From a virus: 64,000 nt of DNA. Below, one piece after another: positions 4,134 through 59,788 of this stretch (the stretch's first letter is position 1; each line of letters begins with the position of its first letter). The notes below the pieces were generated by a model. That model did not search any database, was not told the origin of the DNA, and saw only the letters and a program-made list of their open reading frames with translations. A program made the translations under genes and the position numbers. The stretch covers positions 91,509-155,508 of the IMG/VR virus record IMGVR_UViG_3300026097_000980; one strand, 5' to 3'.

Positions 4134-4355
4134 ATGTCCAGAGAAGAAGATGACGAACTGAGAAGAATCGTTGAGGAACTAGAAAGTTTAAGAAAACAAG
4201 TAGGGCTTCCAGACCGTGTTGAAAAAGTAGAAAAGGATGCTATTCAGAATGCTCTTTATGAGACCGATGGCAATCAAACACTTGCGGCAAAAAAACTTGG
4301 ATTAGGTAGAACCTGTTTGATTGCCAAAATGAAGAAGTATGGGATTATAAAGTAG
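4134..4355 (+). CDS. Small Fis/NtrC-type helix-turn-helix DNA-binding protein
   Basis: A 73-residue protein: a charged coiled N-terminal half (about 1-32), then a classic HTH_8 (Fis) domain at about 35-72 reading AIQNALYETDGNQTLAAKKL and continuing to KKYGIIK. The NQTLAAKKLGLGR helix-turn-helix is the NtrC-family DNA-contact motif. It is the only plus-strand gene among minus-strand late genes and carries its own late-type box. Likely a small transcription or nucleoid factor; the target is unknown. The 3' end overlaps the convergent gene by 11 bases. Confidence 0.75.
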   Translation: MSREEDDELRRIVEELESLRKQVGLPDRVEKVEKDAIQNALYETDGNQTLAAKKLGLGRTCLIAKMKKYGIIK

Positions 4356-6045
4356 CGTTAGGCTCGTTAGGTTTCTTATCTAGAGAATCTGGCATTCCAT
4401 CATTGTCAGCGTCATTATATGTATTAGGAGTGTCAGTGTCTTTCTTCTTATAGATTGTCAGCATTTCATTGTTAAGATCTGCTAACACCTTACCGGCGGC
4501 ATCTACTTCAACAATATTTCTAATAGTTTTTCCTTGTTGAATGTATGAACGATACTGTACTAGAATATTGTTCTTACCTAACTTCTGTGCAATATTTTTT
4601 ATTTCATCAGGTGCATCTTTTAGTTTTTCGCTAGGCTTAACTTTAACTTGTAACGCAACGCCATTTCCGCCTTTGGCAGTTAAAACATTACTGCACTCTA
4701 AGTCAAAATATTCGCAGACTTGATAAAATGTTTTTCCAAACCTTAGTTCTACAAAATCTTTACCTGCTCCTGGATCCATGATAGTCACAACTACTAGCTC
4801 GTCGCCGCGAGTCTTAGAAGAGGCATCTTGCTGATCAACATTCTTCCCTGAATGATATAGTAGTCCTTGCTGTAAATGTGATAGAAAGTCTATTTCACCT
4901 TCTGTTGTATCACCTGCAAGATGTTTGTTAATTTTTTGTTGGGCCCATTGATAAGTTTCTTTAATAGGCCCATTCATTACTGCTTGAAGAGTCTTAGGAT
5001 TTACTATGAACTCACCATCTTTGGTATAGTTGTCTATTACTTTTGCAAATGATGATTTGAAGTTTTCAGGTAACTCATAGTTAAAACTCTGTCTCCAGAA
5101 CAATCCAAGTTTCTCAAAAGTTCTACCACTTGCCTGTCCAATCTGTGAACGGCCACTGCCTGCTTTTAAACTTAAAAGACTTAGTGTTTCTGGATCTCCT
5201 TCGCTACCAGCAACGATAAGTTTTAAATCAACCTTTGTCATATTTTGGTTTTCTGCTTCTGCACCGTCACTTACTACGCTGATCTCTTGTTTGACATCAT
5301 CAGTGTAATATTCTTGGATTTTAGATACAGCATTACTTGGTTCAAGGCCTGTGTTTGCATAGTTTGCCGCCTTGCTTATCATTTCATTTAGTTTCTTTCC
5401 AGCATCATCACTTAATTCTAGTTTTCTCTGCACTGCTAATCCGTCGCCTTTTGCTTCTATAAGCATTCTTAAGGCTTTGATGTCTCCTCTAGGGAGTGTC
5501 ACTTTAATACTTAGACTATCATCGGTTCTGTCTTGCACCGGCAAACTTATTTCATTTTTTCCGCTTGCAAAGAAATTTTCTCCAATGCGTAGAACATCGT
5601 CTGCCGAAATTTCTGTAGATGTATTAGTAAATCTTGCAGCCATTGCAAATCCTAATACACCTTCAGTAACATTTCCTGCATTTACAGTAGTTTTAACAGC
5701 TGACTTATCTATGTTTGTAGGAATAAATTTATGAGTTTTGCCGTCTTCGTCTACGCCGGTTATTTTTTCTTTTACATTTGTTTTTTCACCCGACGATCTT
5801 AGTTCTACTTGCTTGTTTATTATTGCAAGAGCATTTTCTATCTCTTCTTCAGGAATAGTAACAGGAATTAACCCACTCCCTGCCTTAACTATGATTGTCT
5901 CTCCTGCTTTTATCTTTGCGATAAGAGGAGGTATGTATGCATTATGGCTTTTATTTTCCGGAGTCCAATATTCTCCCGAAATTAGAGCTTCGTGTAGTTT
6001 CATTGTAGACTTGACTGTTTCTGATAAAAATTCAAATGCTCTCAT
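4345..6045 (-). CDS. Conserved phage protein with MRAFEFLSE N-terminus
   Basis: A 566-residue soluble protein. The first residues (MRAFEFLSE) match a leader motif shared by several genes here (34893-36005 MRAFEILTE; 44892-45176 MRAIEI), which I recall from T4-like marine phages. The middle is mixed alpha/beta with no motif I can place. The C-terminus DADNDGMPDSLDKKP is a calcium-binding thrombospondin-type-3-like loop. A late-type box lies five bases before the ATG. Probably a virion-associated or morphogenesis protein; function unknown. Confidence 0.6.
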   Translation of the reverse strand: MRAFEFLSETVKSTMKLHEALISGEYWTPENKSHNAYIPPLIAKIKAGETIIVKAGSGLIPVTIPEEEIENALAIINKQVELRSSGEKTNVKEKITGVDEDGKTHKFIPTNIDKSAVKTTVNAGNVTEGVLGFAMAARFTNTSTEISADDVLRIGENFFASGKNEISLPVQDRTDDSLSIKVTLPRGDIKALRMLIEAKGDGLAVQRKLELSDDAGKKLNEMISKAANYANTGLEPSNAVSKIQEYYTDDVKQEISVVSDGAEAENQNMTKVDLKLIVAGSEGDPETLSLLSLKAGSGRSQIGQASGRTFEKLGLFWRQSFNYELPENFKSSFAKVIDNYTKDGEFIVNPKTLQAVMNGPIKETYQWAQQKINKHLAGDTTEGEIDFLSHLQQGLLYHSGKNVDQQDASSKTRGDELVVVTIMDPGAGKDFVELRFGKTFYQVCEYFDLECSNVLTAKGGNGVALQVKVKPSEKLKDAPDEIKNIAQKLGKNNILVQYRSYIQQGKTIRNIVEVDAAGKVLADLNNEMLTIYKKKDTDTPNTYNDADNDGMPDSLDKKPNEPNATL

Positions 6046-6050
6046 AAGTG

Positions 6051-6058
6051 TATTTATT
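6051..6058 (-). promoter_or_regulatory. Late-type box AATAAATA, 5 nt from ATG
   Basis: On the minus strand AATAAATA is followed by CACTT and the ATG at 6045. One of ten boxes in the window with a 4-5 base gap to the start codon. Confidence 0.45.
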
Positions 6059-6740
6059 CAATATCGGGGAATAGGCAATCTTGTATGAATGCTCGGACAT
6101 CCTCTTCGTCCAGGCCTAATGCGGCCATTGTGCGAGGAGTATGTGGATTTTGTTTTTGGTAATACGCATAACGATTTTGTGCGGTGATGCCTTGTTCGCG
6201 ATCGCCTTGATCATTAAAGAACGCAATCTCATCTAGGTAAGCATACACATTATGTTCAGCCATTGCGTAAATCTGTTCTAGTTCATCTTCCTTGTTAACA
6301 TTACCGGCAGCGACCATATGCTCAGAAAATATAGCTTGCGCCCAGTCTGGTAACTCTCTCTTTTTACGCCAGTCTAGTTTGGCAACTTCTTGAGCAAATC
6401 CTTCAATCATAACATGATGTGGATTTTGTGTTGCTGAGTAATCGTGAAAGCATCCTGTAATTTTATTTTTGCCTGCAATAACATCGAATCCAAATATAGG
6501 ACCGTCATTTTCTAGGTGTGGGAAGATGCAACAATGCATCATCCACAGTCCTTTGGTATCGCGAGCATCAACTACATCCACATGAGCCCTGCGATACTGA
6601 TCACTATTCCAAACACGATTAACCCACCCAGGCTGATTGAAGCGATCCATACCAGGCTCCGATACCTCAGTTCCTGTTTTGTCAAACGCCGCTTCAAAAG
6701 TCTGCTGTACTCCTATCAATGTATCCCAAACTTGACTCAT
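6054..6740 (-). CDS. pcyX: Ferredoxin-dependent bilin reductase, PcyX type
   Basis: A 228-residue protein of the ferredoxin-dependent bilin reductase family, which reduces biliverdin to phycobilins. The core MMHCCIFPHLENDGPIFGFDVIAG aligns by eye with the PcyA active site: the conserved His is residue 69 and the catalytic Asp residue 86. Length and similarity fit the viral PcyX group known from oceanic viral metagenomes, reported to make phycoerythrobilin. It overlaps the AhcY stop (TAATG), and heme oxygenase, which supplies biliverdin, is encoded 1.7 kb upstream on the same strand. PebS or PcyA is possible but less likely given the CCIFPHLEND segment. Confidence 0.85.
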   Translation of the reverse strand: MSQVWDTLIGVQQTFEAAFDKTGTEVSEPGMDRFNQPGWVNRVWNSDQYRRAHVDVVDARDTKGLWMMHCCIFPHLENDGPIFGFDVIAGKNKITGCFHDYSATQNPHHVMIEGFAQEVAKLDWRKKRELPDWAQAIFSEHMVAAGNVNKEDELEQIYAMAEHNVYAYLDEIAFFNDQGDREQGITAQNRYAYYQKQNPHTPRTMAALGLDEEDVRAFIQDCLFPDIE

Positions 6741-8026
6741 TAGTATCTATAAGTCTCTAGTTTGTAAGGTCCTTGTACAGGTACACTAATATACTTTGCC
6801 TGTTCTTTTGTGAGCACAGTTAGGTCAGCACCTAGTTGTTCTAGATGTAGTCTAGCTACCTTCTCGTCTAGATGTTTTGGTAGAAGATATAACTTGCCTT
6901 TTTCGTAGTTTTCTGCATTATTCCACATTTCAATTTGTGCAAGAACCTGGTTAGTAAAACTATTGCTCATTACATAACTAGGATGGCCAGTAGCACAACC
7001 TAGATTTACTAATCTTCCTTTTGCTAGAACGATAATCTTTTTACCATCAGGAAATTTTACATGATCAACCTGTGGTTTAATTTCATCCCACTCATATTTT
7101 TCTATGCCTTTAATATCAATTTCACTGTCAAAATGGCCAATATTACACACAATAGCATTGTTTTTCATTTTAATCATATGGTCGTGTGTGATAACATCGA
7201 TGTTGCCTGTGGCTGTAACAAAGATATCTGCTTTGTCTGCGGCATACTCCATTGTGGTAACTTTGTACCCTTCCATAGCCGCTTGGAGTGCAAGAATAGG
7301 ATCAATTTCAGTAATCCATACTTGAGCACTTAATGCTCTTAATGCCTGAGCAGATCCTTTGCCAACATCTCCATATCCACAAACGACAGCAATTTTGCCA
7401 GCAATCATAACATCTGTTGCTCTTTTAATTGCATCTACACAGCTTTCACGGCAACCATATAGATTATCAAATTTAGATTTAGTAACACTGTCATTTACAT
7501 TGATTGCAGGAATTTTAAGTGTGTTATTTTCAATTCTTTCCAACAGTTTGTGAATACCTGTAGTAGTTTCTTCTGTAACTCCTACAATGTCTTCCAACAG
7601 TTCAGGATACTTGTCGTGAATATAACCTGTAAGATCGTGGCCATCATCCAGTAGAATGTTAGGTGTCCAGCCATTAGAACCTCTCAGTGTTTGTTCGATA
7701 CACCACCAATACTCATCTTCAGTCTCACCTTTCCATGCAAATACTGGAATACCTTGATCAGCCAAAGCGGCTGCCGCATGATCTTGAGTAGAAAAAATAT
7801 TACAACTACTCCAGCGAACATCAGCACCTAGCTCTACTAGTGTTTCAACTAACACTGCTGTTTGAATAGTCATGTGCAAACTACCTGTAATTCTAGCACC
7901 AGCTAGAGGTTTTTTACCTGCATACTCTTTCCTAATTGCCATCAATCCTGGCATTTCGCCTTCGGCAATCTCTATTTCTTTTCTGCCGTAATCTGCAAGG
8001 TTAATATCTTTAATTTTGTAATCCAC
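6740..8026 (-). CDS. ahcY: S-adenosylhomocysteinase
   Basis: This 428-residue enzyme cleaves S-adenosylhomocysteine to adenosine and homocysteine, relieving product inhibition of methyltransferases. Visible signatures are the N-terminal [20 protein letters not shown], the Rossmann motif [10 protein letters not shown] for NAD, and the C-terminal end PYKLETYRY. Length is full for the family. The start is GTG, preceded by AAGGAAAAC. It sits between the bilin reductase and a membrane-protein gene, and MetK at 30 kb completes a partial methyl cycle. Confidence 0.95.
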
Positions 8027-8048
8027 TAATGTTTTCCTTATGTTAATA

Positions 8049-8444
8049 TTATAAACTGTTTACTAAATTCATTGCTACACTGGTTCCCGTTATCGCACTG
8101 CCTATCATAATAGCGCGATCGTTCCATACGCCGCCTACGTATATCCACAAGACAGATGCGATTAGATAGGACAGTTTTCCATAAACGTCCATATCAGCCG
8201 AAAACAAAAATACACCAATAATAGCCAATACAGTTGCACCCCACTTGGCATAATAATCAACGGTGCCAGTAGGTGTTGTCGGACGTAGATCATCCGCCTC
8301 TGCTTGAAGCTCTTCTAGCTCCTGCTTCAGTCTTCTTTTTTCTGTGGCAAGTTCCATTGCAAGCTTCCCTGCTTTAGACATGGTGCTGCCTTCGAATCTT
8401 TCGTGTGTTTCTTCACTCACTATCGGGTCATCTCTATCTGTCAT
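8049..8444 (-). CDS. Coiled-coil membrane protein
   Basis: A 131-residue protein with a charged helical segment at about 22-50 ([20 protein letters not shown] and following Glu-rich residues), then two to three closely spaced hydrophobic segments ([48 protein letters not shown]). It lies between ahcY and heme oxygenase. The topology would suit a small inner-membrane protein or holin-like protein, but nothing specific supports that. Confidence 0.6.
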
Positions 8445-8450
8445 AAAGGA

Positions 8451-8993
8451 TTATTTATCTACAAATTCCATCATTTCTTGAAATAATCTAGTTGCAAACT
8501 CAAAACATAGTTTAGCTTCATCGGCCATACTGTCGTCAACCTTTTTTCTAATTTTTTCTTTTAATTCTTCTCGATCACCATCGAATTGATAAAAACGTCC
8601 TTCTCCAGGAACTTTTTTAGCAATTATTTGTCCGCCACTTAGATCGCCCATGTGCCTTACATAGATATGAGCCATAAGTTTATGTGGGTCATTGCTGATG
8701 CTCATGATATGATCAAGATATTCTTTTACAACCGCACACTGAGGTGGCTGTTGATCCTTGTGCGGCCACAATTCCATAAAGTCCGCATAGATTTCCTTAG
8801 ATCGTTCAACAATTCGCATATCGTTTAATAATCCGTGACGTGCGGCCATAACTTCTAACAGTTCATACATTGGAAACTGATTCCATAGGTAGGTTGCATA
8901 TAATTCTGCATCGATATCTTTAAACAATACTTTTACAAATTCTTGCCTTTCGGCGTTTGTGTGTTGTTCTTTGGTAAGTTCTTTTAGACTCAT
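8451..8993 (-). CDS. ho1: Heme oxygenase
   Basis: A 180-residue heme oxygenase that opens heme to biliverdin, CO and iron using ferredoxin or another reductant. The N-terminal LTKEQHTNAERQEF carries the proximal heme ligand His, and YVRHMGDLSGGQIIAKK is the distal helix with the GDLSGGQ signature. It is shorter than cyanobacterial HO1 (about 240), as in viral forms. The start overlaps the clpS stop (ATGA). With the bilin reductase it forms a heme-to-bilin pathway. Confidence 0.93.
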   Translation of the reverse strand: MSLKELTKEQHTNAERQEFVKVLFKDIDAELYATYLWNQFPMYELLEVMAARHGLLNDMRIVERSKEIYADFMELWPHKDQQPPQCAVVKEYLDHIMSISNDPHKLMAHIYVRHMGDLSGGQIIAKKVPGEGRFYQFDGDREELKEKIRKKVDDSMADEAKLCFEFATRLFQEMMEFVDK

Positions 8994-9292
8994 TGTTCTT
9001 CTTCTACCACAATCTTTAACGGATACCCGTTGCTTCTCGCAATCGCTGTTGCTTCTAGACCTTTTTGTTCTGCAATTTCATATAGATATGCACCGGCTAT
9101 GCCACTTCCTGTATTATGCACTTCCATTGTGATTTGTTCAGCAGTCATCCTATCATGTCTAAATATTCCCATTAAGATTTCTATCACCAGTTCCATAGGT
9201 GTTACGTCGTCGTTCAACAATAACACTTTCCATAATTTTGGAGGTGACAGGTCCGTTTTGGTTTTTATTTTAAGATCATTTTCTGTTGTCAT
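8990..9292 (-). CDS. clpS: ClpS, adaptor of the ClpAP protease
   Basis: A 100-residue ClpS. The core PKLWKVLLLNDDVTPMELVI, then MEVHNTGSGIAGAYLYEIAEQK, matches the N-degron-binding adaptor fold; the NDD and the M of TPM belong to the substrate pocket. It delivers N-end-rule substrates to ClpAP. It is coupled to heme oxygenase downstream and follows hsp20; clpP is at 46 kb and no ClpA/X ATPase is in the window, so it would act with host ClpA. Confidence 0.93.
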   Translation of the reverse strand: MTTENDLKIKTKTDLSPPKLWKVLLLNDDVTPMELVIEILMGIFRHDRMTAEQITMEVHNTGSGIAGAYLYEIAEQKGLEATAIARSNGYPLKIVVEEEQ

Positions 9293-9311
9293 GTTATCCT
9301 CTGATATAAGT

Positions 9312-9329
9312 GGGGGAGTTGCCTCCCCC
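9312..9329 (-). terminator. Hairpin between hsp20 and clpS
   Basis: GGGGGAG/CTCCCCC forms a perfect 7-bp stem with a four-base loop, directly after the hsp20 stop. No T-run follows on the minus strand, so it may be an mRNA 3' stabiliser or processing hairpin rather than a full terminator. Confidence 0.45.
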
Positions 9330-9338
9330 TAGACTGTG

Positions 9339-9803
9339 TTACTTGCTATCTACTGTGAGAGATTCTTTTGAAGCAGGAGCCTCAATTGCAATCTTCTTAG
9401 GTTGTAGCTCTTCTGGAACTTCACGCTTGAGGTATACATTCAGCATACCGTTGTCTAGCGAAGCTCGTTCTACTTCTACGTGATCAGCAAGTGTAAACGA
9501 TCTGCTGAAGTTACGTCCTGCGATGCCTTTGTGTAGATAGTTTACTTCATCATCACCTTTTGGAGATATACCTTCTACAGTAAGGATATTTTTGTCCTTG
9601 GTAATATCCAAGTTATCCATATCGAACCCAGCAACGGCCAAAGTAATTACATACTCGTCGTCGTTAATCTGTGCAATGTTATATGGAGGATATCCTTGCG
9701 GAGCACTGTTTGCGAATTGACGATCTAGTTCGTCGAACAGTCTATCAAATCCCACAGTTGCTCTGTGTAATGAAGGTAGGTCTAGAGTTGTTAGTCTTGT
9801 CAT
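9339..9803 (-). CDS. hsp20: Small heat-shock protein Hsp20
   Basis: A 154-residue alpha-crystallin-domain chaperone that holds unfolded proteins. The N-terminal MTRLTTLDLPSLHRATVGFD resembles IbpA-type proteins. The domain spans about 38-135 with ITKDKNILTVEG, GIAGRNFSRSFTLADHVEV and LDNGMLNVYLKREVPEE, followed by an IAIE C-terminal anchor. The leader has AAAGGAG before the ATG and a late-type box about 60 bases upstream. Hsp20 is a common cargo of marine T4-like phages. Confidence 0.93.
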   Translation of the reverse strand: MTRLTTLDLPSLHRATVGFDRLFDELDRQFANSAPQGYPPYNIAQINDDEYVITLAVAGFDMDNLDITKDKNILTVEGISPKGDDEVNYLHKGIAGRNFSRSFTLADHVEVERASLDNGMLNVYLKREVPEELQPKKIAIEAPASKESLTVDSK

Positions 9804-9863
9804 TTTGTTTCTCCTTTTAAATAAGCAAGATTTTTACGTAGGACCCATTATGGCGTCCAAGTT

Positions 9864-9871
9864 TATTTATC
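9864..9871 (-). promoter_or_regulatory. Late-type box GATAAATA upstream of hsp20
   Basis: Minus-strand GATAAATA lies about 60 bases before the hsp20 ATG. The predicted leader contains a GGACGCCAT/ATGGGTCC inverted repeat and an AAAGGAG ribosome site. Confidence 0.4.
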
Positions 9872-10982
9872 ACACGAATACACCGTTGTACTGTTGTGTG
9901 ACTCTGACAAATGTAGTACATTTACTTAGGTGCTTGAGCTTTGCGGCTCCGGCATAGGTACAGGTACTACGCAAACCGCCCAGGATGTCCTGAACGACGT
10001 CTTCTACTGCTCCGCGATATGGCACAAGAACTTCTCTGCCTTCCGCGGAACGGTATTCTCGTAATCCACCAAAGTGTTTTTCATTTGCGGCCTTTGAGCT
10101 CATTCCGTAGAATTGTACAAACTGTTTTACTTCCACAATTGGTTTTCCATCTTGTAGGGTATACTCTTTCTGGTACCAACGGTTTACAACGTCTCCGCCG
10201 CCTTCATCACAGCCCGCAAGCATACCACCAAGCATTACAAAGTCAGCACCTGCGGCAAACGCCTTAGCCACATCGCCAGGACAAGTGCAACCGCCATCAG
10301 CAATAATGTGGCCGCCCAAACCGTGGGCTGCATCGGCACACTCAATGACAGCTGATAACTGAGGATAACCAACCCCAGTTTGAATCCGTGTAGTACATAC
10401 ACTACCAGGGCCAATGCCCACTTTAACAATATCTGCACCTGCAAGAATAAGTTCCTCAGTCATCTCACCTGTTACTACATTACCCGCAATGATGACAATA
10501 TGCGGATAAGTCTTGCGCATCTCTGACACAAAGTCACGGAAGCGATTTGAATATCCGTTGGCTACGTCGATGCAAACGTATTTTAGATTACCGTCTGCAC
10601 GACTGTATACATCTGCAAACTTGTTCCAATCACTGCCGTTGATGCCTATGCTCATAGCAACTTTATTAGTTCGTAGATATTCGTCTGTGTCGTAAAAGTC
10701 CACAAGCTCGTCCGCAGTGTAAGTCTTAACTAGACAGGTAAACATACCTAGACGTGCAAGTTCGTCTGCCATCTCAAATGTACCAACACCGTCCATATTG
10801 GCAGCCATAACAGGAATGCCTCGCCAGTGTTCATCTTCGATATTGTCAGGAAACTCTGGCGTCCAATTGCGCCAAGTGTATCCTCTATGAAGCTGTACTT
10901 CTTTGCGACTGCCTAGTGTGCTACGCTTGGGGCGAATAAGAACGTCTTTATAATCTAGTCTAAGTTCTGATTCAATTCTCAT
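9870..10982 (-). CDS. guaC: GMP reductase
   Basis: A 370-residue enzyme of the IMPDH/GMPR family that converts GMP to IMP with NADPH. The N-terminus [20 protein letters not shown] is close to E. coli Gua[42 protein letters not shown] (catalytic Cys) and [20 protein letters not shown] complete the signature. No CBS domain is present, which favours GMP reductase over IMP dehydrogenase. It has about 20 more residues than E. coli GuaC near the N-terminus. The ATG at 10982 overlaps the exonuclease stop (ATGA). Confidence 0.9.
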
Positions 10983-11542
10983 CTGCTTTCTCCAATAGGA
11001 TCTAGTCCTTTGTTTCGCAATCCTTTTAGCACATTCTGTACACCGACTGCTTGATTCCAAGCATCTTCTAGTGCGTGATGTTTTAGCACAGGCGGACGAT
11101 TGGGATCAATACCTAAGTCATACAATGTACGAGTGTCACGGGCTTGCCAAAACTGCCAAGGACATGATTTTTGTAATTTGCTAAAAATATGTTCTAGAAT
11201 TACCAAGTCAAATCCTGCTCCGTGACTCCACACTCGTTTAGCACCCCAACAAAATTTATACAATTGATCCATAGCATCCTTAATATCGACTCTGCCTTCA
11301 GGATTAAATGCTTCTTCTTGTGCTTCGGCACTTTGCTTTGCCCACCACTCAATGGTAGCATCGCTTGTGGTAAGACCTAGTGCGTCGCAACTGTCGATGT
11401 CCACACGGACATAAAACTTTTCACAGTCAGGTGATTCGACATCGTCACCATAAGGATCAAACTTCACAGCACCAATACTCAAAACTGTAGCCGTAGGCAA
11501 TACGTCCAAAGTTTCTAAATCTATCATTACATCACTTAGCAT
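10979..11542 (-). CDS. DEDDh-type 3'-5' exonuclease
   Basis: A 187-residue RNase H-fold exonuclease. Visible motifs are MIDLETLDV (ExoI: D, E), [12 protein letters not shown] (ExoII: D) and [11 protein letters not shown] (ExoIII: H..D). The phrase [19 protein letters not shown] resembles the Rv2179c-like/exonuclease VIII group of phage exonucleases. It would degrade RNA or DNA from the 3' end. It is coupled to guaC. Confidence 0.85.
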
Positions 11543-11601
11543 TATTTTCTCTCAAGTTTTTGATCTATGTTACTATAGTAACATCTAAGAAAATTTTGTC
11601 A

Positions 11602-11637
11602 ATAAAAAAGGACTCCGAAGAGTCCTTTTTGTTTTTT
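11602..11637 (-). terminator. Terminator after groEL
   Basis: AAGGACTC/GAGTCCTT stem around CGAA, with T-runs on both sides (TTTTTT on the minus strand). It lies between the groEL stop and the start of the next minus-strand gene and is probably bidirectional. Confidence 0.8.
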
Positions 11638-11638
11638 A

Positions 11639-13240
<1,602 letters not shown>

Positions 13241-20486: not shown

Positions 20487-20534
20487 TTTATTTCCTTCTG
20501 TGTGTGATATTGTTTAGATATCTAAGTATAGTTA

Positions 20535-20563
20535 TAAAAGAAAAGCACCCGAAGGTGCTTTTC
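20535..20563 (-). terminator. Terminator of the tmRNA gene
   Basis: AAAAGCACC/GGTGCTTTT stem around a tetraloop, followed by TTTTCTTTT on the minus strand, directly after the tmRNA coding piece. Confidence 0.8.
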
Positions 20564-20565
20564 TG

Positions 20566-20883
20566 ACTTTTGGATTACAAGGCAGTCAACCCCGAAGCCT
20601 CATGCGGCCAGTGCGAATGTTTCATCATTTGCAGTTATTTTATTTTGCTTCTACGACCGGGTATACTCCCAATCCTAACGGCTTTCACATTGCCGGTAAC
20701 TCCACTCGCCTAATCATCTCGCCGTCGAATCCTTGATCTGCCCCATCATAGATACACCACGTTCTTCTCCTACTATTTCACCTTTCGGTCTACTCTCTCG
20801 GAGTTGTAGATGTATCTATGGTGGAACAGCCGGGAGTCGAACCCGGGTCCGTCAACCTTTCGGTCTGCTTCATCGTTACAGTA
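20566..20883 (-). ncRNA. ssrA: Circularly permuted (two-piece) tmRNA
   Basis: On the minus strand the acceptor piece comes first (about 20883-20819), ending in a T-arm GGTTCGACTCC, acceptor CTGTTCC, A and encoded CCA. An intervening segment (20818-20745) follows, then the coding piece starting GGGGCAGATCAAGGATTCGA at 20744. The two acceptor strands GGGGCAG and CTGTTCC pair over seven positions (two G-U). The resume codon GCA at 20632-20630 opens the tag ANDETFALAA, ending TGA at 20602-20600. CATAGATACA and TGTATCTATG extend the acceptor stem across the excised loop. The exact ends are estimates. It rescues stalled ribosomes and tags products for Clp proteolysis. Confidence 0.93.
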
Positions 20884-20885
20884 TT

Positions 20886-20914
20886 ATTTAACTATCTTTT
20901 TTGCTGTCTGTCAA
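20886..20914 (-). promoter_or_regulatory. Probable promoter of the tmRNA gene
   Basis: TTGACA-N17-TTAAAT on the minus strand, inside the last codons of the upstream gene, with a start predicted just before the acceptor piece. The -10 is weak; read-through from the upstream gene is the alternative. Confidence 0.45.
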
Positions 20915-53218: not shown

Positions 53219-53232
53219 AGGCCCCGCTGTAA
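53219..53232 (+). repeat. AGGCCCCGCTGTAA repeat, copy 1
   Basis: Intergenic, followed by an alternating CACACACACGTATGTG segment. The same 14-mer occurs at 53618, 53826 and 57285. Confidence 0.8.
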
Positions 53233-53320: not shown

Positions 53321-53453
53321 TATTGTAGCAATGCCTGTCATCCCCTCCATCCTGATTCACAATTCTCCACAGTAAATCTACCGTTTCCCCCAGAATATGA
53401 CTCACTTTCGGGGTTTCACTGTGCATAAATCACACAATCTGAGTGGATATCAC

Positions 53454-53462
53454 TGTGGATAA
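53454..53462 (-). promoter_or_regulatory. DnaA box (TTATCCACA)
   Basis: Perfect consensus on the minus strand. Confidence 0.7.
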
Positions 53463-53538
53463 GTCGGTGATTTCACAGTTCGACCTGCGCATAAGTGATA
53501 TTATGTTAAATCACAGTCCCTCTACTGTACACACAGAG

Positions 53539-53547
53539 TTATCCACA
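53539..53547 (+). promoter_or_regulatory. DnaA box (TTATCCACA)
   Basis: Perfect consensus on the plus strand, 22 bases from the next identical box. Confidence 0.7.
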
Positions 53548-53560
53548 GTACAGTACACAG

Positions 53561-53569
53561 TTATCCACA
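53561..53569 (+). promoter_or_regulatory. DnaA box (TTATCCACA)
   Basis: Perfect consensus on the plus strand, two helical turns after the preceding box. Confidence 0.7.
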
Positions 53570-53617
53570 GTGTGTAGAACAGCGACAGAAGATTCTATAC
53601 TACTGTGTAGACCGCAT

Positions 53618-54197: not shown

Positions 54198-54274
54198 GCG
54201 CCTATAGCTCAGTTGGTTAGAGCAGGGGACTCATAATCCCTTGGCCCGAGGTTCGAGTCCTCGTGGGCGCACCA
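54198..54274 (+). tRNA. tRNA with CAT anticodon (Met or Ile2)
   Basis: A 77-nt cloverleaf: acceptor GCGCCTA/TGGGCGC, anticodon stem GGGGA/TCCCT with loop CTCATAA, T-loop GGTTCGAGTCC, encoded CCA. CAT can be elongator Met or, after lysidine modification, Ile reading ATA. The G-rich anticodon stem and the other two tRNAs reading codons ending in A make Ile2 plausible, but identity is not settled. Confidence 0.95.
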
Positions 54275-54279
54275 TAACA

Positions 54280-54355
54280 CTCTCGGTAGCATAATGGATA
54301 ATGCAACAGCCTTCTAAGCTGTGGATTGCAGGTTCGAGTCCTGCCCGGGAGGCCA
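54280..54355 (+). tRNA. tRNA-Arg (TCT)
   Basis: A 76-nt cloverleaf: acceptor CTCTCGG/CCGGGAG, anticodon stem ACAGC/GCTGT with loop CTTCTAA (anticodon TCT), T-loop GGTTCGAGTCC, encoded CCA. Reads AGA/AGG. It begins with C, unusual but seen for other tRNAs. Confidence 0.95.
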
Positions 54356-54359
54356 CTTT

Positions 54360-54446
54360 GCCAGTATGGTGGAATTGGTAGACACAATGGACTTAAAATC
54401 CATCGCCCGCAAGGGTATCCCGGTTCGAGTCCGGGTACTGGTACCA
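54360..54446 (+). tRNA. tRNA-Leu (TAA)
   Basis: An 87-nt type II tRNA: acceptor GCCAGTA/TACTGGT, anticodon stem ATGGA/TCCAT with loop CTTAAAA (anticodon TAA), a long variable arm CGCCCGCAAGGGTAT, T-loop GGTTCGAGTCC, encoded CCA. Reads TTA/TTG. Confidence 0.96.
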
Positions 54447-54506
54447 CGTTGAACAACAGTTGAACAAAAAAGTTTTACTGTTCACCATTTGTCCTAAAAA
54501 TAACAC

Positions 54507-54535
54507 TTTACACATACGTGCGCAGACGTTACTAT
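54507..54535 (+). promoter_or_regulatory. Promoter of cassette gene 1
   Basis: TTTACA-N17-TACTAT followed by ATACACATAC and an ACGGAGCGTACACT leader. Confidence 0.65.
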
Positions 54536-54567
54536 ATACACATACTTTAAAAAACGGAGCGTACACT

Positions 54568-54819
54568 ATGCAAAATTACACAACTGCTGTTGCAAGCGTT
54601 ATTGCTTACTATGCAAAAATGATTGCAGAAGCAAGCTACGACTCAGTAGCGGAAGCAAGCGACTACAGCATTACAGACAACTGCGCAAAAATACAGTACT
54701 TGCTTGCGGAAAGTGCGCAACACACTACTGTGCAAAGTTTAGCAGTTGCCGCAATAAACAGCAGTGCGGATACAGTAGTACGCGAATGCATGTACACACA
54801 ATTAATGCAACACACGTAG
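54568..54819 (+). CDS. Cassette gene 1, proline-free hypothetical protein
   Basis: An 83-residue Ala/Ser/Thr-rich helical protein, MQNYTTAVASVIAYYAKMIA, ASYDSVAEASDYSITDNCAK, no Pro. ACGGAGCGTACACT precedes the ATG. It is the first of five small genes with near-identical leaders in the TC/CC-depleted block. Codon choice follows that rule (for example GCA, AGC, TTA). No family recognised. Confidence 0.6.
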   Translation: MQNYTTAVASVIAYYAKMIAEASYDSVAEASDYSITDNCAKIQYLLAESAQHTTVQSLAVAAINSSADTVVRECMYTQLMQHT

Positions 54820-54836
54820 TTAATAGTAAAACACAA

Positions 54837-54866
54837 TTGTACACTGTAGCATGCATGTGTTACTAT
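54837..54866 (+). promoter_or_regulatory. Promoter of cassette gene 2
   Basis: TTGTACA with 17-18 bases to TACTAT, then ATACACATAC, sharing the cassette leader. Confidence 0.5.
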
Positions 54867-54899
54867 ATACACATACTAAACAAAACGGAGCGTGTATAT

Positions 54900-55109
54900 A
54901 TGTTAACTACTAAGCAACTTAGTGCTAAAACGTTTGTAACATACTGTAGTACTACTAACACACTGTTTTTGCACAAGCAAAAAGTAAAACCCAAAAACGT
55001 AGCATTTGCTACAGCGGATTTTGTAGTTAAAAATGCGGCTGTGCAACAAGTTAAAAAGTTTTTTGCACTGCCCGCGCTGTACAACTTACGTAAAAAAACT
55101 GCAACTTAA
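54900..55109 (+). CDS. Cassette gene 2, basic hypothetical protein
   Basis: A 69-residue Lys-rich protein: MLTTKQLSAKTFVTYCSTTN, HKQKVKPKNVAFATADFVVK. The leader ACGGAGCGTGTATAT is a variant of the shared one. No TC occurs; CC only in its two proline codons. No family recognised. Confidence 0.55.
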   Translation: MLTTKQLSAKTFVTYCSTTNTLFLHKQKVKPKNVAFATADFVVKNAAVQQVKKFFALPALYNLRKKTAT

Positions 55110-55122
55110 TTGCAAAAAACAC

Positions 55123-55151
55123 TTGCACTATGTGTGCAAGTGTGCTACTAT
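55123..55151 (+). promoter_or_regulatory. Promoter of cassette gene 3, with inverted repeat
   Basis: TTGCAC-N17-TACTAT. ACTTGCAC and GTGCAAGT form an 8-bp inverted repeat over the -35 and spacer, a possible operator. Confidence 0.6.
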
Positions 55152-55193
55152 ATACACATACACTAAACAATTAACTGCATTAGGAGCGAACTT

Positions 55194-55640
55194 ATGCAAT
55201 ACTGTAATATTAATACACACTGCGCTGTGGTTGATAGCGCAAACTATGCACTGCTTACAGCAGAACAACAGCAAACACTTACACAAGCGGAAAAGTGTTT
55301 TGTTGTGCAATTTTTAGCAGATACACTTGCAAGCTTAACACAACTTAATAATGCAAGTGTAGTTGAGGGTGAGGAGTACGTTATACGTTTAACGGACGCA
55401 CTTGAAGTTATGCAAAACTTGCAAGCACTGTATGAAACGTATGAGGATGATAACGCACAGTTAACGTTTACAATAGCAGATGCGGGTGCGGCAATTTGTA
55501 GTTACGATACAGAGTACAGAGAGTGCATTGCGGAGCAATTTGAGTGTGCGTGTGATGAGCAAGCAAAACTTGCAAAGCAATTGCACACTACTGGTGCGGA
55601 CTATAGCACACTTGCACTGCGTGTAATTTACGCTTACTAA
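55194..55640 (+). CDS. Cassette gene 3, proline-free cysteine-containing protein
   Basis: A 148-residue acidic helical protein with no proline: MQYCNINTHCAVVDSANYAL, LADTLASLTQLNNASVVEGE, CSYDTEYRECIAEQFECACD. Seven cysteines, four clustered near residues 110-130. TTAGGAGCGAACTT precedes the ATG. Its 447 bases contain no TC or CC. Serines are all AGC/AGT and phenylalanines all TTT. The largest cassette product; family not recognised. Confidence 0.6.
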   Translation: MQYCNINTHCAVVDSANYALLTAEQQQTLTQAEKCFVVQFLADTLASLTQLNNASVVEGEEYVIRLTDALEVMQNLQALYETYEDDNAQLTFTIADAGAAICSYDTEYRECIAEQFECACDEQAKLAKQLHTTGADYSTLALRVIYAY

Positions 55641-55648
55641 AAAAACAC

Positions 55649-55677
55649 TTGACAAAGTGTGCGTATGCTGTTATAGT
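55649..55677 (+). promoter_or_regulatory. Promoter of cassette gene 4
   Basis: TTGACA-N17-TATAGT followed by ATACGCATAC and the leader AGGAGCGTACACT. Confidence 0.75.
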
Positions 55678-55709
55678 ATACGCATACTTTAAATACAGGA
55701 GCGTACACT

Positions 55710-55877
55710 ATGCAAGCAAAGCAAGCATACACTGTTAACTTAACAGCAAACGAAGTTAGCACACTGCTAGAGTTAGTAAAAGCGGAGCAACAGCACTACG
55801 AGGACAGTGAGGACACAACAGACGTTGCTGTGTACACACTGTGCGACAACATACTAAACAAATTGTATAACGCATAA
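55710..55877 (+). CDS. Cassette gene 4, small hypothetical protein
   Basis: A 55-residue acidic helical protein, no Pro: MQAKQAYTVNLTANEVSTLL, ELVKAEQQHYEDSEDTTDVA. ACAGGAGCGTACACT precedes the ATG. No TC or CC in the gene. The beta-alpha pattern could suit a small DNA-mimic or regulatory protein, but there is no direct evidence. Confidence 0.6.
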   Translation: MQAKQAYTVNLTANEVSTLLELVKAEQQHYEDSEDTTDVAVYTLCDNILNKLYNA

Positions 55878-55884
55878 AAAACAC

Positions 55885-55913
55885 TTGACAACTGTGTATG
55901 TGTGTGCTATAGT
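55885..55913 (+). promoter_or_regulatory. Promoter of cassette gene 5 and the ATPase operon
   Basis: TTGACA-N17-TATAGT, then ATACACATAC and ACGGAGCGAACA before the ATG at 55946. Confidence 0.78.
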
Positions 55914-55945
55914 ATACACATACACTAAACAAAACGGAGCGAACA

Positions 55946-56128
55946 ATGACAGTAGCAGAACTTGTAGCACAGCTACAGCAACTTCCACAAGACCTCGCAG
56001 TCACAGCGTTTTCACATCAACAAGCACAAGAGCTTGAACTGTATAGTGCGGAACTGTTTGAAGCAATGGGCACACCTGAAGATGAGCACTATATTCCAGA
56101 ATCAGTCACACTGCACTTCGACGTATAA
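55946..56128 (+). CDS. Cassette gene 5, small acidic protein
   Basis: A 60-residue protein: MTVAELVAQLQQLPQDLAVT, ELYSAELFEAMGTPEDEHYI. It begins inside the TC/CC-depleted block, which ends about 38 bases into the gene, and is followed nine bases later by the ATPase gene. The N-terminus (TVAELVAQLQQLPQDLAV) resembles many short phage proteins of unknown role. Confidence 0.65.
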   Translation: MTVAELVAQLQQLPQDLAVTAFSHQQAQELELYSAELFEAMGTPEDEHYIPESVTLHFDV

Positions 56129-58912: not shown

Positions 58913-59272
58913 ATGTCAAATTCAGTAGAAGCAATGTTGGTAGAGGCGGCACACGCCAAAGCAATCCAAGCGGCTCGCAATGCGGCCCAAGCGTTCGCAG
59001 ATCGCCACTTCGGCGGCGGCGATGGCGGTGCGTGTGGCTTTGCTTGGGTTGACGCATACAAGGTACGTTCAAATTCAAAGATGGGCAAGGCACTGCAGGA
59101 AGTAGGCTTCCGCAAGAGCTACACTGGTGCACTCCAACTGTGGAACGGACGTGATGGTTGGTATTTTGGCCAGAGCGTGGATGCCGCAGAAGAAGGTGCT
59201 CGTGCCTACGCTGAAGTATTCAAAGAAGAGCTTGAGCTTGACAACATCTACGCAGGATCGCGCTTAGACTAA
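58913..59272 (+). CDS. Hypothetical protein, Ala-rich with Gly loop
   Basis: A 119-residue protein: MSNSVEAMLVEAAHAKAIQA, FADRHFGGGDGGACGFAWVD, EVGFRKSYTGALQLWNGRDG. AGGAGCGAAAC decides the start at 58913 over an upstream ATG. The Gly-rich loop HFGGGDGGACG is distinctive. Family not recognised. Confidence 0.65.
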   Translation: MSNSVEAMLVEAAHAKAIQAARNAAQAFADRHFGGGDGGACGFAWVDAYKVRSNSKMGKALQEVGFRKSYTGALQLWNGRDGWYFGQSVDAAEEGARAYAEVFKEELELDNIYAGSRLD

Positions 59273-59331
59273 GGAACAAACGACCTGGGCACGTCGCGAG
59301 GAAAACTGCCCGTTTTATTTTTCCTAAATGG

Positions 59332-59360
59332 TTGACACTGATCCAAAATGGCCATACACT
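59332..59360 (+). promoter_or_regulatory. Early promoter, type A
   Basis: TTGACA-N17-TACACT with spacer CTGATCCAAAATGGCCA and ATACATATAGT. A GGGCA...TGCCC hairpin with a T-rich tail (59287-59322) just upstream may terminate the previous message. Confidence 0.8.
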
Positions 59361-59392
59361 ATACATATAGTAAGAAATTAGGAGCGAATCCA

Positions 59393-59788
59393 ATGACCAC
59401 ACTTTTACAACACATCGAGTCACTTAACGCACACGCAGACCTCATGATGGAGCAGGAGCCAGGTCTGTGGATGAGCAAGTACACGGACGATATGTCGCAT
59501 TGGGCAGACATGGGTGTGTACACCGTGGAGGACTTCAAGCGCAATCAGTTGATCAACGGCATCTCGGATGCCAGCAAGGACCTCTATGGTTGCCGCTTGC
59601 GTTTGGACTGGGATGAGATGACTATTGAGCAGATGGAGTCTACATACGAGAACATCTGTGCTCAACTGCGTATCCAGTTCGAAGAGGAGCAGGCTTGGGA
59701 GGCTTGGGAAGCAGAGTGTAAGAAAGGCTTGCCAGATGACTGCGAGCCTCTTCCATACGAAGAGTATGCAGACTTGGAGCGTGTGTAA
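59393..59788 (+). CDS. Acidic hypothetical protein
   Basis: A 131-residue acidic protein: MTTLLQHIESLNAHADLMME, LDWDEMTIEQMESTYENICA, EEEQAWEAWEAECKKGLPDD. TTAGGAGCGAATCCA precedes the ATG. Strong negative charge suggests a DNA-mimic or binding partner, but this is conjecture. Confidence 0.65.
   Translation: MTTLLQHIESLNAHADLMMEQEPGLWMSKYTDDMSHWADMGVYTVEDFKRNQLINGISDASKDLYGCRLRLDWDEMTIEQMESTYENICAQLRIQFEEEQAWEAWEAECKKGLPDDCEPLPYEEYADLERV

Follow-up and report, generated by a model that had tools for sequence, protein, structure and literature searches.

Small genes of large uncultured phages that appear to avoid the dinucleotides TC and CC from transcription start to stop codon

The window analysed here, 64,000 nucleotides long, comprises the last 64 kb (positions 91,509 to 155,508) of the 155,508-bp virus record IMGVR_UViG_3300026097_000980. 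On its plus strand, downstream of three tRNA genes, lies a block of four or five small genes, all preceded by a Shine-Dalgarno (SD) sequence and by a sigma-70-like promoter of their own, in which cytosine is hardly ever preceded by a pyrimidine, i.e. the dinucleotides TC and CC (together, YC) are nearly absent. Its limits lie 12 bases ahead of the first -35 box and 37 bases into the gene of product 5. The gene calls listed below are mechanical and the promoters are consensus matches.

54198-54446, plus strand: genes of tRNA-Met, tRNA-Arg and tRNA-Leu, directly upstream of the block; YC use ordinary, context only
54495-55983, plus strand: YC-less block with 1 TC and 5 CC, from dinucleotide counts and a scan
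54507-54535, plus strand: promoter of product 1 (TTTACA, 17 nt, TACTAT), consensus match
54568-54819, plus strand: product 1, 83 aa, no Pro; homologues in L002, L004, L010, L011 and L014
54838-54866, plus strand: promoter of product 2, consensus match
54900-55109, plus strand: product 2, 69 aa; contains the CCs of its two Pro codons
55123-55151, plus strand: promoter of product 3 (TTGCAC, 17 nt, TACTAT), consensus match
55194-55640, plus strand: product 3, 148 aa, TC 0, CC 0; homologues in L002, L004 and L010
55649-55677, plus strand: promoter of product 4 (TTGACA, 17 nt, TATAGT), consensus match
55710-55877, plus strand: product 4, 55 aa, TC 0, CC 0
55885-55913, plus strand: promoter of product 5 (TTGACA, 17 nt, TATAGT), consensus match
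55946-56128, plus strand: product 5, 60 aa; ordinary YC use after the first 37 nt, the block ending inside this gene, as the sequence-only reading had noticed

Family searches yielded no credible match for the products of the block: product 3 barely passed the cut-off for PF09730 (Bicaudal-D coiled coil), a match judged spurious, and, although predicted to be helical, gave no match at E≤0.001 in a fold search of the PDB. The homologues of product 1 are YC-less in L004, L010, L011 and L014, with a partly relaxed copy in L002, and those of product 3 (65% identity in L002, 48% in L004 and 50% in L010) are all YC-less. Among cultured phages, no relatives were found of product 3, of the GSSIWD family or of the P0001 family considered below; the AAA protein adjoining the block matches PA5oct-like and many other phages. 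Elsewhere in the window, ARAGORN identifies a phage-encoded tmRNA gene with the tag ANDETFALAA (20509-20911, minus strand). The motif GGCCCCGCTG recurs at 53220, 53619, 53827 and 57286 of the window and within 5632-12080 of contig L020, always on the early-gene strand; the L020 copies are located inside CCCC...GGGG inverted repeats between cassettes. The non-coding stretch 53400-53600, where gene orientation flips from minus to plus, contains repeated TTATCCACA words, which resemble DnaA boxes, and is possibly a replication origin.

The near-absence of TC and CC, first noticed by eye, was borne out by counting. Over the 1,489 bases of 54495-55983, 6 YC are found against 166.8 expected from the whole record (Poisson P ~1e-62), the ratios of observed to expected counts being 0.01 for TC, 0.09 for CC, 1.62 for AC, 1.99 for GC, 1.11 for TT and 1.14 for CT. 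An unbiased scan of the 155,508-bp record for 100 dinucleotide classes ranked YC at this position as the most depleted class, and this was the sole YC block of the record; under a codon-preserving null, the four coding sequences of the block would be expected to contain 71.7 +/- 6.8 YC instead of 6 (z -9.7). Thus, the desert withstood both the scan and the codon null that the sequence-only reading had proposed. Its claim that TC and CC are missing altogether from the later part of the block is likewise correct, the longest YC-free run extending over 912 bases from 55072-55073 to 55983, as compared to at most 105 bases in the window outside 54-57 kb. Cytosine itself is not rare (0.197 in the block versus 0.217 in the rest of the window), with AC and GC raised. 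GA and GG (together, GR), which had been described as common, actually occur at about half the expectation; in non-coding DNA they are nearly confined to SD sequences and -35 boxes, and they are avoided at codon junctions. Assembly error as the cause is ruled out because independent contigs hold YC-free blocks of their own: L002 and L003, from two metagenomes, each contain 1,358 bases without a single TC or CC. The low-YC block is, therefore, confirmed as real.

Among 1,805 genes in 66 related loci, the fraction of cytosines that are part of YC is bimodal, with a main mode at ~0.35 and 183 genes at or below 0.05. The YC-less class comprises 154 distinct proteins from 47 loci, which fall into 64 single-linkage sequence families. 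The YC-less genes analysed deviate from a codon-usage null by z -28.9, so that the depletion exceeds amino-acid and codon constraints, and TC is shunned more strictly (3 versus 346 expected) than CC (14 versus 227 expected). In contigs that bear homologues, YC-free stretches include, besides those of L002 and L003, 946 bases of L004 without any YC, 2,448 bases of L011 with 5 YC, and ~8 kb of L020 with few. Since isolated YC-less genes sit amid normal ones in L019, L004 and L020, YC avoidance is a property of genes; YC persists in other early and late genes of these phages. The suggestion that the block had been acquired from a genome with this bias fares poorly, given that the bias is set gene by gene, with normal genes adjoining in the same phages, and that the P0001 family has no relative in 84,980 species genomes. 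Judged from the sequences, the block is a member of a discrete class of small genes in large uncultured phages.

A strong desert score alone is no proof of a ban, as can be seen from the G003 record, where 565 bases without AT or TT (58986-59550) belong to a gene for a charged, Glu/Ala/Arg-rich coiled-coil protein. Short islands without TC, CC, GA and GG are present in the cultured P. aeruginosa jumbo phage PA5oct (MK797984) at L060:38999-39138, L060:41342-41557 and L062:2085-2231; being short and scoring below AT-content variation in the unbiased scan, they are not claimed as part of the class.

A family of ~117-aa proteins, found from L014, has 45 distinct members on contigs of up to 400 kb. 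The 34 YC-less members among those aligned contain 4 YC in 2,260 C, at a median amino-acid identity of 0.47 and with the third bases of NYN boxes differing at 50% of the sites. In these genes, Phe is always TTT (132/132) and Ser always AGY (305/305), Pro does not occur at all, and C takes 734 of the 932 NRY third positions. GR is normal (~0.5) in the family, hence the YC ban is one-stranded. The tree of the family requires several changes of YC state, so the ban can be gained or lost.

The limits of the ban were traced in 28 units of the 117-aa family with a clear promoter. YC amounts to 31/228 in the region -100 to -61 and to 4/94 in the -35 box and spacer, drops to 0/155 between the -10 box and the ATG, amounts to 3/1869 within the coding sequence, and returns to 15-26% just past the stop codon, with GR staying at ~0.5. 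Similarly, 14 first-of-unit promoters from other phages have 62/237 upstream versus 10/507 in the transcribed part (P 1e-23), and in L020 the counts are 6/1160 in transcribed DNA versus 70/534 between a terminator and the next promoter (P 1e-29). The depletion is thus confined to the transcribed region and to one strand; only in a doubly purged subset (see below), and not in the main family, does the avoidance extend to the other strand and to untranscribed DNA. Taken together, these counts indicate that the YC ban runs from transcription start to stop codon on the coding strand. Since a DNA-level rule would ignore both of these limits and would not be one-stranded, the ban appears to act at the level of RNA. 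Of the causes put forward in the sequence-only reading, the one that gains support is, accordingly, that the genes evade an enzyme or factor which requires YC in RNA, the more so as the ban is kept in diverged homologues.

Another of these causes was past cytosine deamination in YC context, i.e. a mutational scar left by repeated deamination of the exposed non-template strand. The strand and context observed here are in line with known deaminases that prefer TC and CC, and the region from the -10 box on is the strand that is melted. However, the expected excess of T is missing. In fourfold boxes, the third base is T in 268 of 978 cases, against 285 expected from plain loss of C and 411 if all C had turned into T; A, G and T have each taken up part of the missing C. 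The P0001 family includes normal members (L067, with TTGACA and an SD, and L068), a partly purged one (L065) and purged ones (L004, L017, L020 and L066). At YC sites of the normal or partly purged members, the purged ones show C>T 135 times, C>A 131 times and C>G 45 times, and at another 143 sites it is the first base of the word that was changed, so that, in the alignment of homologues, the conversion of YC into TT or CT that deamination predicts is just one of several kinds of change. In addition, the C content of the block is hardly lowered, C is favoured after purines, and the ban halts at a stop codon. A deamination scar is, therefore, hardly credible, and the loss of YC is best described, as far as alignments and counts can tell, as avoidance and not C-to-T mutation. 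The P0001 genes are translated, as follows from their dN/dS of 0.09-0.39 and the excess of third-position changes; a fold search with P0001 matched only uncharacterised phage proteins. Because the ban tracks the message, C is favoured after purines, the lost C is not found as T, and Pro and TCN-encoded Ser are gone, the cause is very probably selection on transcripts as opposed to a deamination scar, codon bias or assembly error.

A second ban accompanies the first in part of the class. Many YC-less genes also shun GA and GG wherever the cost is low: across codon junctions, G|A is found in 29/499 cases versus 228/785, no avoidance is seen for G ahead of an Asp or Glu codon, and non-coding GR is nearly restricted to SD sequences and -35 boxes. 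In a subset, the P0001 family and its neighbours, TC, CC, GA and GG are all near zero (observed/expected 0.01-0.04), the purged P0001 proteins have become almost devoid of Asp, Glu, Gly and Pro, there is no SD, and the -35 boxes read TTGCAT or TTTACA. The GR ban is thus weaker than the YC ban in general and total in a subset without SD. The GR ban could be read as evidence for a two-stranded DNA rule, but the one-stranded 117-aa family speaks against this reading. The two bans are separable, since a gene for a 94-aa basic protein (L002:16770-17054, plus strand) avoids GR only, with GA 0, GG 0 (no Gly, Asp, Glu or Trp) and 46 YC; besides its own contigs, the search turned up just one relative, at 87%.

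What, then, could select against YC in a message? We suggest that YC-less mRNAs evade a dinucleotide-specific anti-mRNA enzyme, either an RNase or an ADP-ribosyltransferase like CmdT, a reading to which we assign a probability of just under one half (about 0.47). More generally, YC-less messages probably escape an agent of the infected cell by which this RNA word is recognised or attacked. Each YC in a message would be a target for an agent that acts on single mRNA dinucleotides during infection, most likely an endoribonuclease of low specificity or an mRNA-modifying enzyme like the GA-specific CmdT, which the host could make as a defence or the phage for shut-off. Any message that has to be translated while the agent is active would have no target left. 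That it would act at individual dinucleotides is suggested by the strictness of the ban, every single site having been removed. Escape has proceeded by change of either base, to any base, which also speaks for such an agent. A second or broader agent reading GA or GG could account for the weaker GR ban and for its total form in genes without SD. Three observations count against the proposal: YC is kept elsewhere among the early and late genes, so that the agent would have to be limited to a time window or to a subset of messages; the gene L002:16770-17054 lacks GR and yet keeps its YC; and the YC remaining in the L020 spacers are not more often paired than RC (0.66 versus 0.65), which gives no support for their protection by base pairing. 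No YC-specific enzyme was found, nor was an RNase like RegB of T4 in a search that had no positive control.

The main rival to an anti-mRNA enzyme is evasion of the termination factor Rho, which among readers of YC in RNA is the best known and whose primary RNA site binds 5'-YC, so that YC-less transcripts, having no rut site, would escape termination before the stop codon. Here the letters match exactly, 5'-YC repeats being the proposed contact points of the primary site (PMC9160355); TT and CT are not avoided, and the ban is one-stranded, covers the transcribed region up to the stop codon (0/155 and 3/1869, as rut evasion would expect) and then relaxes. Nevertheless, Rho needs several YC over a long unstructured stretch, so that single sites should be tolerable, whereas only 4 in 2,260 C are left; ribosomes should shield translated genes with strong SDs; TC is shunned more strictly than CC; the GR ban is not explained; and L002:16770-17054, C-rich, G-poor and with 46 YC, would be an ideal Rho target but is not avoided. 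On balance, Rho evasion appears unlikely. Some other constraint on messages, namely a phage-specific machinery of translation or RNA handling that copes badly with YC, or a phage regulator with affinity for YC-containing RNA, would fit a ban that spans the 5'UTR and the coding sequence up to the stop codon, the very part that ribosomes read, as well as the lack of SD in doubly purged genes. Such a constraint would have to single out a few genes and spare their neighbours, and we know of no machinery of this kind; we consider it quite unlikely. As to avoidance at the level of DNA, where a nuclease, a restriction or modification enzyme or a CRISPR PAM would read YC or GR in the double strand, the genes of L004, L017, L020 and L066 that lack both YC and GR do so largely in spacers and promoters too, down to the altered -35 boxes. 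However, the largest family is one-stranded with normal GR, and its YC is back right past the stop codon; the few kb that obey the rule in genomes of 150-400 kb cannot protect the DNA; and no guanine modification enzyme of the TGT/DpdA type was found in nine records, which together make this explanation improbable.

A parallel to the preferred anti-mRNA enzyme is the bacterial anti-phage system CmdTAC: CmdT ADP-ribosylates solely the GA dinucleotides of single-stranded mRNA and thereby blocks translation of phage mRNA (PMC11618068), so that weapons of this type do exist. The GA target includes the SD, the very element absent from doubly purged genes; evasion of CmdT would account for the SD loss. 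GA is at 0.04 of expectation in these genes, in line with such evasion, but GR is at 0.5 in the main YC-less family, which is not. CmdT reads GA, however, whereas the YC-less genes avoid YC; the agent would have to be a YC-reading counterpart. The consulted passages of PMC11618068 do not mention phages that escape by purging their sequences.

The avoidance of words as such is a known principle. To our knowledge, a near-total dinucleotide ban that is confined to single genes between promoter and stop codon and shared by dozens of phages is unprecedented, and searches of the open-access literature turned up nothing similar. Phage genomes are known to lose short words to escape restriction enzymes, but such avoidance concerns double-stranded DNA genome-wide and usually palindromes of at least 4 bases, in contrast to a ban that affects one strand of a few genes within transcript limits. 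Single protein production from ACA-less messages is an engineered use of MazF. There, too, messages without the recognition word survive while the rest are cut, MazF cleaving single-stranded RNA at ACA (PMC9102682), although the word is of three bases and the system man-made, whereas the YC ban is natural, of two bases and spread over dozens of phages. Suppression of CpG and UpA (ZAP/KHNYN) likewise depletes viral RNA of a dinucleotide read by an RNA-directed antiviral system of the host; in RNA viruses it is genome-wide and partial (PMC3829696, PMC12709174), unlike the near-total YC ban, which is restricted to individual genes of DNA phages, goes no further than the stop codon and costs the proteins amino acids. 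We tentatively propose that messages without a given dinucleotide (YC and, in a subset, also GR) are the only ones translatable under a dinucleotide-specific anti-mRNA weapon, a natural counterpart of the ACA-less system; this weapon may represent a new enzyme family, either of bacterial defence or of phage shut-off.

The YC ban would, then, be the record of a strong selective agent that reads two RNA letters, and identifying this agent could bring to light either a new enzyme of defence or host shut-off, or Rho as a major barrier to phage genes. The 64 families offer a searchable marker for genes expressed under the agent. The rule is strict enough to drop whole amino acids, and the purged P0001 proteins, with their extreme composition, show how far a nucleotide rule can rewrite a protein. 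In L020, positions 4200-12570 are occupied by an array of more than 10 small genes, each with a promoter and an intrinsic terminator, which looks like a set of shuffled cassettes; even the terminators of this array are built without YC or GR (AAGCAAGC..GCTTGCTTTTTTT).
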